From: a bacterium | GTDB lineage: Bacteria; Eisenbacteria; RBG-16-71-46; CAIMUX01 | DNA: 64,000 bases | Direction of reading: 5' to 3' | Assembly: GCA_030431975.1 (NCBI GenBank) | Contig: JAUIHP010000003.1 | Coordinates: forward strand, 248,001-312,000 | In this document: positions 17,767 through 22,616 of the stretch, one piece after another | How the letters are laid out: each line of letters starts with the position of its first letter | Position numbering within the stretch: the stretch's first letter is position 1 | The notes under the pieces: model-generated | The model's database searches: none | The model's input: the letters and a program-made list of their open reading frames with translations, nothing else | What the model was told of the DNA's origin: nothing | Position numbers and translations under genes: made by a program

Positions 17767-17977
17767 GCGGTCATTCTCGATATCGGCGCGGCCCAGCCCG
17801 CGTTCACGGAGCCGGAGACCTCAATCTTACCTGTTGGGATCGTCGATCATGCGTACGATCCGGAACATAGTCTATCCTGGAAGCGTTACCAGGGGATGTA
17901 GATCCGATCGCGCGACGGAGATCTCTCCCGCCGACACGATACGACCCTGCGAATACTGTGTTTCTTCTGGAGGATGG

Positions 17978-18529
17978 ATGAAAGTCTTACGCACCCTGGC
18001 ACTGGCGGCGGTCATTGCTGTCGGGGCCTGCTCCGACGACAAAAAGGCTACAGAGCCGGGTCTTCCCACGGGGCAGGTTCCGGATTTCGCGGCTGAGGAC
18101 GTCAATTCGACTTCGGCCCGTTTCGGCGAGACCATTTCGCCGCGGGACTACGAGAAGTCGGTCTCGGCCTGGTATTTCGGGCACGCCACCTGAAGCTACT
18201 GTCGTGCCCAGTTTGGGCACTTGGACGCGATGCAGCAGGAGCTCGACGCACTGGACCTGGATCTCAACGTTCAGATTCTGGGCGTGAATCAGGTGGGGCA
18301 CAGCAGCCTCAACGACACCGTTTGTGACGGCCGGGACTTACCCTGGCTTCAGGAAGTCAGCGAGTCTCTCATTTGGAGTCCCTGGGAGATCACCTACCGC
18401 GACGTGGTCATCGTCGGCCCCGACAACGAGCGGATCGCCGCCTACAACCTGACGAACAACAACCTGGGTGACTCGGCAAAGTACGATCAGCTGAAGAACA
18501 TGCTCATCGACGCCGCTGACTCCCCGTAG
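17978..18529 (+). CDS. Predicted selenoprotein: redoxin-type lipoprotein with UxxC motif (TGA at 18191 read as Sec)
   Basis: The frame runs from ATG 17978 (TGGAGGATGG just upstream) to TAG 18529 with one internal TGA at 18191-18193. Read as selenocysteine, it gives 183 residues. Residues 1-18 are a lipoprotein signal (lipobox V-G-A-C, Cys18). FAAEDVNSTSARFGETISPRDYEKSVSAW is the redoxin/AhpC-TSA start. WYFGHAT-U-SYCRAQFGHLDAM puts Sec72 in the place of the first Cys of a thioredoxin CxxC, with Cys75 as partner. ILGVNQVGHSSLND and VVIVGPDNERIAAYN complete a thioredoxin-like fold. Stopping at the TGA would leave half a fold. A SECIS-like hairpin follows. It would act outside the cytoplasm as a thiol or peroxide oxidoreductase, but the substrate is unknown. 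Confidence 0.85.
18191..18220 (+). promoter_or_regulatory. Predicted bacterial SECIS element (Sec codon plus hairpin)
   Basis: After the UGA at 18191-18193, ten bases lead to a perfect 7-bp stem, GTGCCCA (18204-18210) with TGGGCAC (18214-18220), closing a 3-base loop GTT (18211-18213). The loop begins 18 bases after the UGA and its first base is G. This agrees with what I recall of the bacterial SECIS consensus (apical loop 16-37 nt downstream, G at the first or second loop position, short stem). It lies inside the coding region, as bacterial SECIS elements do. Confidence 0.8.
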
Positions 18530-18537
18530 GCAATGAA

Positions 18538-18572
18538 GAAGGGAGTAGGCGCGAAGCCCACTCCCTTCTCTT
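18538..18572. terminator. Bidirectional hairpin between the two selenoprotein genes
   Basis: GAAGGGAGTAGGC (18538-18550) pairs with GCCCACTCCCTTC (18556-18568) with a single mismatch and a 5-base loop. It lies between the stops of the two convergent Sec genes (18529 and 18625) and can serve both. Confidence 0.75.
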
Positions 18573-18624
18573 GTGCCCGCTTCGGGCGCCGCCCGCGTCA
18601 AGCGGTGCGCCGTCTGCGATTCTT

Positions 18625-20646
18625 CTACTGCAGGCGGACGATCTTGATCGAAGACTCGGCCGACGCGTCCTTGTAGGAAGCGAAGAAGACGCCGCCCGGA
18701 ACCTCGAGGCCCGCGTCGTCACGACCATCCCATTCGATCCGGTGATCCCCGGCTTCCAACTGACCGTCGACCAACGTCCGGACCTGGCGTCCCGATGCAT
18801 CGACGATCACCAGAGACACGTTCTCCTGTGCGGCCTGATCCGACAGACGGAAGCGAAGCTCCGTCGACGGCGAGAACGGATTCGGCGAAGCGTCGATGAG
18901 GATCCGGTTCGACAGGCTCGGCAAGTCCACGTCGGCCGGGTCCAGAGTCTGGAGGATCCAGTCCATCGTGTTGCCGATCAGCGTTGTCTTGTTGCTCGGA
19001 TTCGGACCGTCCGGGAAGTTGTCCATCATGACCGTGTTGAGGACGGTCCGCGAACCGTTGCCCGTGATGAAGCGACAGGCGATCGTCTCTCCACCCTCAT
19101 TGGTCAGGATCGACTCTGCGCCTCCGAGCTCCAGGTGGTCCGCCCGGTTGGCGTTCGGAGCCGGCCAGTCCAGAGTCGGGAAGGCCATGCCGTCGGTGAT
19201 CGGGTCACCCGAGACGCCATCTGCCTGCTCCGCACCGCCGTTGGTCGTCCATCCGGTGAGGCCCAGGTAGTTGGTCGTGAAGTCATTCCCCGGGCTCTGG
19301 ACGTTCAGCATGTCCATGCTTGCGAGGAAGAGGCCACCACCGTTGTCCAGGTACGTCTGCAGCTCGAAAGCCTCAGACGCGCTGATGGGCGAGTTCAGGT
19401 AGGCCGTTTGCCAAACGACCGCGTCATAGCCGGCCATGGCGGAGGCGTTCGGTCCCGTTCCCGCGTTACCCAGCGAGTTGAGGTCGTAGAGGTAACCGTT
19501 GGCATCGAGGGCGTCGGCGATCGTCCCCTCGTAGCTTCCGACACCGTCGTCGTCGACGAAAAGGATCGCCGGAGAGCCGTTGAAGACCTTCGGTGTAATC
19601 GTCTGCATCTGCCCCGTTTCCTGAGAGACGGAGGTCAACGTTCCTTCGCCGATCCGGACATCGGAGTCCGTCTGGACGCGGATCGTAAGGGCCTTCTTCT
19701 CGTTGGCGGCGAGTGCGACGGAGGTTGCGGTGTACCACGTCGGGTCACCCTCGATCTGGAACTCGGCCGGCCAGCCGAAGCCGTTGTCCATGGACAGGTC
19801 GACGACGTCCGGCTGCTCACCCAGGTTCTGGACGAAGCCGTCGAAGAGGACCGTCTCGTTTCCTTCCGGAGCGGAGCCGACCTTCGAAGCCAAGCCGGTT
19901 GCGAAGTAGTAGTCGACCGTCGTGAAGTCGGTCGCCTGGTAGACCTGACCGTTGTTGACCTGCGCTTCGACGATGGCATACGCCTCGAGATGGGCAGCAT
20001 CAAATCCACTGATGTCGATCGACTCCTCGACGGTGACGACACCGCCACCGAAAGTGAGCGTGATCGGCGTCGAGCGAACCATGCGGGTCACTTCTTCCCA
20101 GGTATCCACGCCACCGAAGCCGCAGCACCAGAAGATATCGTTTTCTGCCAGGAACAGCGTGGCCTGAAGCGGCGGGAGGTTGACGTCGTCGACCAACTCG
20201 ATGTCGGCCGTGACGGTCGCCGTCGAACCGTCGATGGTCAGGCCGCCCTGAATATCGATCGGGGAGACGTACCCGACATCGCTGAGTCCGGAAAGGATTG
20301 CCGGCTCGTAGGTCGCAATGGCTCCTGCACAGGAACCGGCGCCGACGAACTCGTTTACGCCGTCAATGTTGACCTGCGGGATACCCCCGACGCCGAAGCG
20401 GCTGGCGCGAGCCACCGTTTCAGAGGTCTGGAACACATCGTTTCCGACGTGAACTTCGAGATGGATGAAAAGCGGGCCGTAGGTGTTGTCCAGATCAATC
20501 AACGCGCACCGCGCGTTGGGGCAGAACGTTCACCAGGTGGCGCCGAATTCTTCGCCCCAAACTCGTTTCAGGACACCGGCGTCTGCGGTCGCGACCATGG
20601 TGGAAAGCATGGCCCCAGCGGCCACGGCAGAGAAGAAGCGGTTCAT
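18625..20646 (-). CDS. Predicted selenoprotein: Omp28-like thioredoxin-fold exported protein with FlgD-like tail (TGA at 20530-20532 read as Sec)
   Basis: The gene starts at 20646 (GGGGGAG upstream) and has one in-frame TGA, codon 39; with Sec there the protein is 673 residues. Residues 1-23 are a signal peptide (MNRFFSAVAAGAMLSTMVATADA). WGEEFGATW-U-TFCPNARCALIDLDNTYG is an Omp28/thioredoxin active site in which Sec39 replaces the first Cys of CxxC. GVGGIPQVNIDG is the cis-Pro loop that normally faces it. A long beta-rich region follows, then a GATase-like segment (PAILFVDDDGVGSYEG ... YDAVVWQTAYLNSP), and a FlgD-like tail (SPNPFSPSTELRFRL ... IEWDGRDDAGLEVPGGVFFASY). An annotation starting at the next Met, 20502, would lose the signal peptide and the active site. 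Confidence 0.85.
20500..20532 (-). promoter_or_regulatory. Predicted bacterial SECIS element (Sec codon plus hairpin)
   Basis: Reading the minus strand, eleven bases after the UGA (20532-20530) a perfect 8-bp stem forms, CAACGCGC (20518-20511) with GCGCGTTG (20507-20500), around a 3-base loop GGT (20510-20508). The loop starts 20 bases after the UGA, and its first two bases are G. This geometry nearly repeats that of the element at 18191-18220, though the stem sequences are unrelated. Confidence 0.82.
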
Positions 20647-20876
20647 TGAACTCCCCCTGAGGGTTGGTGAAGTTTGTACGATGGCTCTTGCTCCGTCGGG
20701 GTTCCTCCCTGGGCACGAGCCGCCAGCCCCCAACACAAAGCCCTACTATTCTACCGGTCGGATGTACTGGTTAGAAAGTAGCCAGATAACGGAATGCACG
20801 GTTAGTGTGGTGAGTGCCGCCCTTTCCCGCACCCGCTCTGGTGACCGACCGCACCCGCGGAAGCGGTTGTGCCCGT

Positions 20877-22616
20877 CTAGACACGCTGCAGCACCCGCTG
20901 AATCCATGGCTGTCGAAGGATGCGGCCGGATGGGCCGCGGACCTCGATCTCGGCGCCCTCTCCGACCAGTCTCCGAAGTTCCGTCGTGAGGACGCGGTAG
21001 TGGTCATACGCCGCACGGCTCCAGCGTCGTCCGACGTCGTGGGTCGTTGTGACCACTTCCCAGTCTTCGTCATCGCCGGATCTCCATCGAACCTGCGATC
21101 CGGAGAGAAACCGGAGCCACGCTGCTCGTCTGTGCACACGTGAAGTCTGGGCCAGGAACTCGCGTAGGGCAGAAGCGACTTCCGTTGCAGTCGCCGTTTC
21201 TTTGAGGGGCGTCGTTGCACCTTTCGTTTCGGGAATCGTCAGCCTGAACGCCGGGTTGTCTGCTTTGGCGCCGACGGTTTCCTGGTCGTCCGAATTGTCG
21301 GCTTCGGTCGAAAGCTCCTTTGCGGAAGCAGAGCCTTTGAGATGGCGTGTTCCCGAAGCAAGAAGGGACCGAACCGTGACGTTCGTGTGCGATGAACCTT
21401 CGGCGTGGATCAAGCCCAACGCCTGCCCCAACAGTTCCTCGTCGACGCCGGTATCTTCCAATCCGAGTTCCCGAGCCAGAAGCTTCACCTCACGACGGTC
21501 GGTTGCCGACGGCGGCATCGCCGTTGCGTCTCGAAGAGCTGCCGGAGCTTCCGAACTCGTTCCGTTCATTTGCTGCGCCAGATACTGCAGCATTCGAAGA
21601 CTCTGAGTTTGGGGCAGAGGGCCGACCGGAAAGTTCGTTCCGTGCCGTCCTGCCGTGCGGAGTTCCCGGTCGAAGAAGAAGACCTTCTGACCGTGGTCCC
21701 GGAGCGCGGTGTTGTATGGCGGCGAGAGCGTTCGGATCTGTTTGGACTCGAGGAGGGCTGCGTCGATGGCGTTCGGAGTGACGCTGACCTCGACATCGTG
21801 GATCTGCGCCAGCAGCTCGCGAACCTTCTGCGGGGCGCTCCGCTTCTGGAAGTAGCTGTTCACCCTCTTCTTCAGTGATGTGGCCTTTCCGACGTAGAGG
21901 ACCGATCGGTCGCGAGCGAGAAAACGGTACACACCGGGAGAGGTCGGCAGACTGAGGCGCGACTCCCGGGGAAGGGGGTAGGACCATTTGCCCTGACGAG
22001 GTGGAACAGGTTCCCTAAGAAGCGAAGTCAGCTCCTCGAAGGATCCGACCCCACGTCGCCGGGAAAGCTCTTCGACCAGGTGTGACCAAACCAGGAGAGT
22101 GGCCCGGACATGATCCCCGGCACGTTTCGACTCCGGCAGGGTGAGGCCGCAGTATCCCGCCAAGGCGCGCAGACTGGCGCGCGGCAAGTCGGGGTAGAGT
22201 CGGCGTGCGATCTCGTGGGCGCAGACGAGATGAAACGGGAAGCTCGATTGCGGCTCGACGCGCAGTTGGAGTTTGCGCAGGAAGGGGTACTCGAACCTCG
22301 CGAAGTGGACGACGCTCACGCTCGAGCCGAACGGAGCTCGGTCAGCCCCTGCCGAGTCTGCGACGAGTTCCTCCCAGGCCGTTTCCGGGGTTACAGCCGA
22401 CGTCATTGCCGCGTCGGTGATTCCTGTCAGTTGTGTGATGCGCGGGGTGAGCGGCGCCGTCTCCGGAAGCTGTACGAGGTGTGATCGAATTCTTGGCGCT
22501 GGGGCAGGATGTGGCTGGCGAATCTCCGCGGCGTTCGCCAATGCCCAGCCCAGCTCGAGAAGATGACCGTTGGCCGCTCCCCCCGTCGTCTGGCAGTCGA
22601 GGGCCAGAATCCGCAT
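20877..22616 (-). CDS. DnaQ-like (degenerate) exonuclease domain fused to UvrC-type GIY-YIG domain
   Basis: A 579-residue protein. Residues 1-185 have the DnaQ/DEDDh outline, but the catalytic residues have drifted: ALDCQTTG has Gln9 where DxE is expected, VVHFARFEYPFL has Glu109 for Asp, and KRAGDHVRATLLV has Lys164 and His169 for the usual His and Asp. The Arg/Leu-rich SLRALAGYCGL helix is intact. Residues 225-315 are a GIY-YIG nuclease (SPGVYRFLARDRSVLYVGKATSLKKRVNSYF ... LLESKQIRTLSPPYN) like the UvrC N-terminus. The remaining 260 residues are not conserved to my eye. Such fusions occur in actinobacteria and elsewhere, with a presumed nucleotide-excision role (compare Cho). It is divergent from the next gene. 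Confidence 0.85.
   Translation of the reverse strand: MRILALDCQTTGGAANGHLLELGWALANAAEIRQPHPAPAPRIRSHLVQLPETAPLTPRITQLTGITDAAMTSAVTPETAWEELVADSAGADRAPFGSSVSVVHFARFEYPFLRKLQLRVEPQSSFPFHLVCAHEIARRLYPDLPRASLRALAGYCGLTLPESKRAGDHVRATLLVWSHLVEELSRRRGVGSFEELTSLLREPVPPRQGKWSYPLPRESRLSLPTSPGVYRFLARDRSVLYVGKATSLKKRVNSYFQKRSAPQKVRELLAQIHDVEVSVTPNAIDAALLESKQIRTLSPPYNTALRDHGQKVFFFDRELRTAGRHGTNFPVGPLPQTQSLRMLQYLAQQMNGTSSEAPAALRDATAMPPSATDRREVKLLARELGLEDTGVDEELLGQALGLIHAEGSSHTNVTVRSLLASGTRHLKGSASAKELSTEADNSDDQETVGAKADNPAFRLTIPETKGATTPLKETATATEVASALREFLAQTSRVHRRAAWLRFLSGSQVRWRSGDDEDWEVVTTTHDVGRRWSRAAYDHYRVLTTELRRLVGEGAEIEVRGPSGRILRQPWIQRVLQRV

Follow-up and report, generated by a model that had tools for sequence, protein, structure and literature searches.

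A predicted Omp28-related (GOS_C-type) selenoprotein of an uncultured Candidatus Eisenbacteria with a probable type IX secretion tail

On the minus strand of the window, the whole 64-kb stretch of DNA analysed here, a long reading frame is broken by a single TGA. Is this codon a stop, an error or a selenocysteine (Sec) codon and, if it encodes Sec, what kind of protein is produced and where would it act? From the sequence and its relatives, we consider it likely that the gene codes for a Sec-containing thioredoxin-fold protein, from a divergent branch of the GOS_C selenoproteins, which would be exported by the type IX secretion system (T9SS) and catalyze disulfide exchange at the cell surface or outside.

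The in-frame TGA

The frame opens with an ATG at 20646-20644, meets the TGA at 20532-20530 and ends on a TAG at 18627-18625. The coordinates given in the initial annotation (ATG at 20646, TGA at 20532-20530, end at 18625, and the cis-Pro loop) proved exact on re-reading. The active-site stretch reads WGEEFGATW-U-TFCPNARC and the cis-Pro loop GGIPQVNIDG, and full-length homologues are collinear with the window protein at 30-42% identity. The features of the gene are as follows:

18625-20646, minus strand: whole read-through selenoprotein gene, 673 codons, Sec39, stop TAG, a single TGA breaking the frame
20651-20657, minus strand: Shine-Dalgarno-like GGGGGAG, 4 nt upstream of the ATG, read from the sequence
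20578-20646, minus strand: predicted signal peptide, residues 1-23, MNRFFSAVAAGAMLSTMVATADA, judged by eye from the translation and of typical look
20530-20532, minus strand: Sec-encoding UGA, residue 39, first position of UxxC (TGA in 22 and TGC in 6 of 28 homologues)
20500-20518, minus strand: bacterial SECIS hairpin, 8-bp stem, GGU loop at 20510-20508, 11 nt past the UGA
20257-20577, minus strand: thioredoxin-fold domain, residues 24-130, with U39-x-x-C42 and cis-Pro90, by profile match to solved thioredoxins
20506-20508, minus strand: Cys47 codon, overlapping the SECIS tip; predicted partner Cys106, by co-occurrence
20329-20331, minus strand: Cys106 codon; predicted partner Cys47, by co-occurrence
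19912-20256, minus strand: Omp28-type beta region, residues 131-245 (NF045500 match over protein 14-191; weak PF11551 matches in homologues)
18922-19899, minus strand: middle region, residues 250-575, beta-rich and then alpha/beta, conserved in long homologues
18628-18900, minus strand: C-terminal FlgD-Ig-like / T9SS type A sorting-like domain, residues 583-673 (FlgD_ig and PorU-tail similarity)

The N-terminal domain was searched against 47 genomes of the phylum and was found in 11 of them, all from one order of Candidatus Eisenbacteria; the remaining genomes lack it despite near-universal SelA (a match in 43 of 47). A scan of genome contigs with a narrower alignment returned two named matches, from Candidatus Eisenbacteria MAGs, and a search of viral contigs and plasmids gave no relatives. 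Among the 28 readable homologues from the 11 genomes, the column of residue 39, always the first position of CxxC, is occupied only by TGA (22 copies) or TGC (6 copies). The proposal that Sec replaces the first Cys of this motif is thus borne out by the column itself, by the SECIS element described below and by the machinery of the genome (6.19 Mb, 59 contigs), in which all four components were found: SelA (494 bits), SelB (366 bits over two stretches), tRNA-Sec with anticodon TCA (70.7 bits) and SelD, which bears its own in-frame TGA. This genome has four copies of the gene, every one with TGA. Since six homologues manage with Cys, Sec is not indispensable. A tRNA scan of the window and of the SelB locus gave none, the tRNA-Sec sitting elsewhere in the genome, and an Rfam scan of the 64-kb window returned no matches.

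If the TGA were an ordinary stop, a sequencing error or the scar of a pseudogene, the rest of the frame would be decay or a separate gene starting from TTG 20502, and a reading under table 11 does yield a downstream 625-aa ORF only. However, a product of this ORF would have neither the signal peptide nor any part of the active-site motif, while the frame past the TGA is open and conserved over more than 600 residues. A sequencing error is very unlikely, the TGA being shared by independent genomes; it is also found in the four paralogues of the window's genome, and the excess of SECIS signal is confined to the TGA copies. We judge this explanation to be very improbable and already refuted by the conservation pattern. 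A genome-wide reassignment of TGA, for example to Trp or Gly, would agree with the presence of in-frame TGA in several genes of the genome. Yet TGA is the ordinary stop of selA and of 8 of the 27 likely window genes, which excludes a global reassignment; Cys is moreover the sole sense replacement in homologues, and the Sec system is complete, so that the probability of this reading is negligible. It is near certain that the TGA of the window gene encodes Sec at residue 39.

The hairpin downstream of the TGA

The perfect 8-bp stem with a GGT loop noticed earlier 12 nt after the UGA is present: its arms lie at 20518-20511 and 20507-20500 around the loop GGU (20510-20508), and the stem starts at nucleotide 12 past the UGA, leaving 11 nt between them. 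The general model of bacterial SECIS elements quoted in PMC13188914 specifies a loop of 3-9 nt, a stem of 4-16 bp, a G in the first two loop positions, a loop 16-37 nt from the UGA and an MFE of at most -7.5. With its GGU loop, 8 bp, 19 nt between UGA and loop and -12.9 kcal/mol, the window hairpin fits this model.

A hairpin score was defined as the best hairpin 16-37 nt downstream with a G in the first two loop positions, and was compared with a null in which synonymous codons are redrawn and the protein is kept. The Sec copies scored 15.6 against 10.2 +/- 0.9 for the synonymous null, none of 400 draws being as high, whereas the Cys copies scored 5.0 against 4.6 +/- 1.7, with 173 of 400 draws as high. 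For the window gene alone, only 0.05% of synonymous reshuffles equal its hairpin. These codon-controlled tests, along with the comparative ones, carry the SECIS claim, as folding of a 61-nt stretch gives only a weak raw z-score (-1.28).

The tip GGU is found at the same place in 17 of the 22 Sec copies and in none of the 6 Cys copies. The majority of homologues pair in an overlapping register, GCCCG-GUG-CGGGC, while the window gene and homologue L049 favour the loop GGU; the use of this overlapping register in most homologues is a new detail beyond the initial annotation. In 17 of 17 cases stem pair 18-26 is preserved, G-C being exchanged for C-G on both sides; the silent third base of Ala45 is thereby coupled to whether residue 48 is Ala or Gly, a link that would be readily explained only by a constraint on the RNA. 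A second Sec lineage (L061 and L098) has another hairpin, CGCUUC-CGGGAUU-GAAGCG and CACCUC-CGGGAUC-GAGGUG, with two compensated pairs. The sequences being related and independent events few, these covariation counts support rather than prove the structure.

The E. coli fdhF-type SECIS has its hairpin about 11 nt after the UGA and a GGU apical loop. The window hairpin is similar in both respects, at about 11 nt and with the same apical loop, but its stem is straight, no bulged U being recognised, and two overlapping stem registers coexist inside the Eisenbacteria family.

In a tree of the domain, unrooted, without outgroup and with the Sec residue masked in the Sec copies, four Sec/Cys changes are found, at least three of them on well supported branches. 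L061 and L098 form a Sec lineage among Cys relatives, and their different hairpin lies further downstream, which suggests an independent gain or an exchanged SECIS. Tandem copies occur in two genomes (L041 and L053 on G010:C172, L045 and L056 on G008:C143); the G010 pair consists of a Cys and a Sec copy side by side and so lends itself to a comparison of the two residues. A TAA reported in L087 is just the ordinary stop of this copy, past the domain.

The window holds another selenoprotein gene, convergent with the first one (17978-18529, plus strand), whose TGA (18191-18193) lies in HAT-U-SYC and whose hairpin GUGCCCA-GUU-UGGGCAC fits a SECIS. Its product matches NF053656, 'TUGYCR motif thioredoxin fold (seleno)protein', at 214 bits for a cut-off of 100, and therefore belongs to a family already modelled. 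In the interval of about 95 bases between these two convergent genes (18530-18624) lies the stem AGAAGGGAGT...ACTCCCTTCT, possibly a terminator shared by both; a promoter and terminator scan of 17900-20900 returned nothing, and no terminator with a T run. The upstream neighbour (20877-22616, minus strand) encodes a GIY-YIG nuclease domain (5.8e-7).

Fold, family and architecture

A profile of 27 N-terminal domains was searched against solved structures. Its best matches were 1nho (E=2e-8) and 1fo5 (E=8e-8), with the CxxC and the cis-Pro aligned, in agreement with the thioredoxin fold, UxxC and cis-Pro loop originally proposed. Structure predictions from three sequences and from one sequence were both of low confidence (pLDDT 49 and 33), and the fold assignment therefore rests on sequence profiles. 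The beta-rich structures that Foldseek retrieved with the first of these models had TM-scores no higher than about 0.35 and were disregarded. Cys47 and Cys106 are both present in 16 of 24 homologues and both absent in the other 8, and L055 loses the two together inside a clade that keeps both. This shared presence and absence predicts a disulfide between them, which is probably structural.

Is such a protein new? The initial annotation knew of no described Sec-containing Omp28-like protein, a statement which has to be withdrawn. GOS_C was described in 2008 (PLoS Genet) on the basis of 74 Sec sequences and assigned a Trx-like fold (PMC2398784), a 2026 review lists NF045500 as the hypothetical protein GOS_C with UxxC (PMC13188914), and NCBIfam NF045500, 'Omp28-related selenoprotein', is of the same kind as the window protein. 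As Omp28-related selenoproteins were described earlier, the kind is already known. The Omp28 relationship itself stands, NF045500 being the best match of the window protein among known families, at 43.4 bits for a cut-off of 200 (protein 14-191, model 27-207). All 12 N-terminal members tested match this model, the best at 1e-19, and none of the 47 phylum genomes reaches the 200-bit cut-off. The window protein shares with NF045500 and GOS_C the Omp28-type thioredoxin domain with Sec in UxxC; in contrast, it has no match to model positions 208-377 and continues instead with the long middle region and the FlgD/T9SS tail. The window protein lacks the part around model positions ~273-310, which matches thrombospondin-type-3-like repeats of unrelated Eisenbacteria proteins; classical members would thus seem to extend into repeats of this type, unlike the Eisenbacteria branch. 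On these sequence comparisons, we place the window protein in a divergent branch of the Omp28-related (GOS_C) selenoproteins, set apart by its C-terminal architecture, classical members being judged via the NF045500 model. Two Eisenbacteria proteins, L093 and L094, have thrombospondin-type-3-like repeats followed by T9SS-like tails.

With the Omp28 family lipoproteins (PF11551 / NF033782), the window protein shares a weak similarity over its N-terminal region; it differs from them in falling below the cut-off and in having no lipobox that we could see. PF11551 gave no match in the window protein, a match below threshold in L049 and weak matches in 6 of 12 homologues. In only some members, vicinal Cys-Cys is found in a beta-region loop (FWCCGFGG, ECCDSQG), at about residues 173-175 of the window protein and in L039, L049, L050 and L060.

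The middle region is conserved among long homologues; a Pfam search of residues 250-575 found no family, and the confidence of its structure model was low. Six homologues (L044, L045, L047, L050, L056 and L060) are shorter and lack this region, most of them retaining the tail, while L065 and L067 lack both.

Location and proposed activity

The last ~90 residues of the window protein match FlgD_ig (2.1e-10) and the PorU C-terminal domain (4.1e-6), consistent with the FlgD-like, type IX-like tail reported at first. The T9SS type A sorting model TIGR04183 is above its cut-off in L049, L039, L057 and L060; the window protein itself does not reach this cut-off and shows FlgD_ig and PorU-tail similarity only. 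T9SS genes are found above cut-off in the genome, namely SprA (490 bits), PorU (540 bits) and eight PorV-family genes. From these similarities, the four homologues and the T9SS genes, the 'FlgD' tail seems best interpreted as a T9SS sorting domain, and the window protein is probably displayed outside the uncultured Eisenbacteria cell.

Alternatively, the selenoprotein might stay inside the cell envelope, either in the periplasm or on the inner side of the outer membrane, with the tail as a mere Ig-type spacer. The tail of the window protein is indeed called FlgD_ig and not TIGR04183, two homologues (L065 and L067) have none, and about 150 places in the genome resemble the window protein, nearly all through the tail, so that such a tail alone is not proof of sorting. 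Against retention, the genome encodes the T9SS core proteins and the tails of close homologues pass the sorting model; we consider such retention unlikely.

The following mechanism is proposed. The mRNA hairpin 11 nt past the UGA would recruit SelB with Sec-tRNA(UCA), and Sec would be inserted at residue 39, a step that almost certainly takes place given the sequence, the machinery and the conservation. The signal peptide would take the protein through the Sec translocon, and the C-terminal sorting-type domain would carry it across the outer membrane by the type IX system, to end at the surface or outside; such export is judged probable. There, U39-x-x-C42 would perform thiol/selenol-disulfide exchange, Sec attacking a disulfide or an oxidant and Cys42 resolving the selenenylsulfide, an activity that the fold makes reasonably likely.

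A precedent is HBP35 of Porphyromonas gingivalis, a cell-surface protein with a thioredoxin and a conserved C-terminal domain, which has thioredoxin activity in vitro (PMC2907840). The N-terminal profile of the window family matches HBP35 (5y1a, E=9e-5), and both proteins combine a thioredoxin domain with a C-terminal surface-type domain; HBP35 differs by its Cys-x-x-Cys without Sec and by another middle region. By analogy with this Cys protein, the window protein is likely a cell-surface thiol/selenol-disulfide oxidoreductase. HBP35, the closest described surface thioredoxin, also binds hemin (PMC2907840) and some members of the family bear the vicinal Cys pair, both of which would suit a Sec that serves binding (delivery of selenium or of metal or heme) and not disulfide-exchange catalysis. 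The invariant UxxC/CxxC and cis-Pro are, however, the catalytic geometry of thioredoxins, and a binding role seems to us quite improbable.

A literature search found no paper linking T9SS with selenoproteins in a relevant way, and the reading of a surface-sorted selenoprotein appears new. The whole combination of a T9SS-exported, surface-anchored selenoprotein family with four copies in one genome, repeated Sec/Cys switching and a SECIS-driven selection of Ala or Gly at residue 48 seems to us slightly more likely than not to hold. In any case, a selenoprotein family known mostly from marine metagenomic reads gains a divergent multi-copy branch, a place in an uncultured phylum and a probable address, the cell surface via type IX secretion. 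Surface selenoproteins raise the question of why Sec would be spent on an exposed redox protein and what would reduce it there. The paired Sec and Cys copies (22 and 6 compared, with three to four switches) offer a natural experiment on the benefit of Sec and on the constraint that a SECIS imposes on the protein in whose coding sequence it lies.
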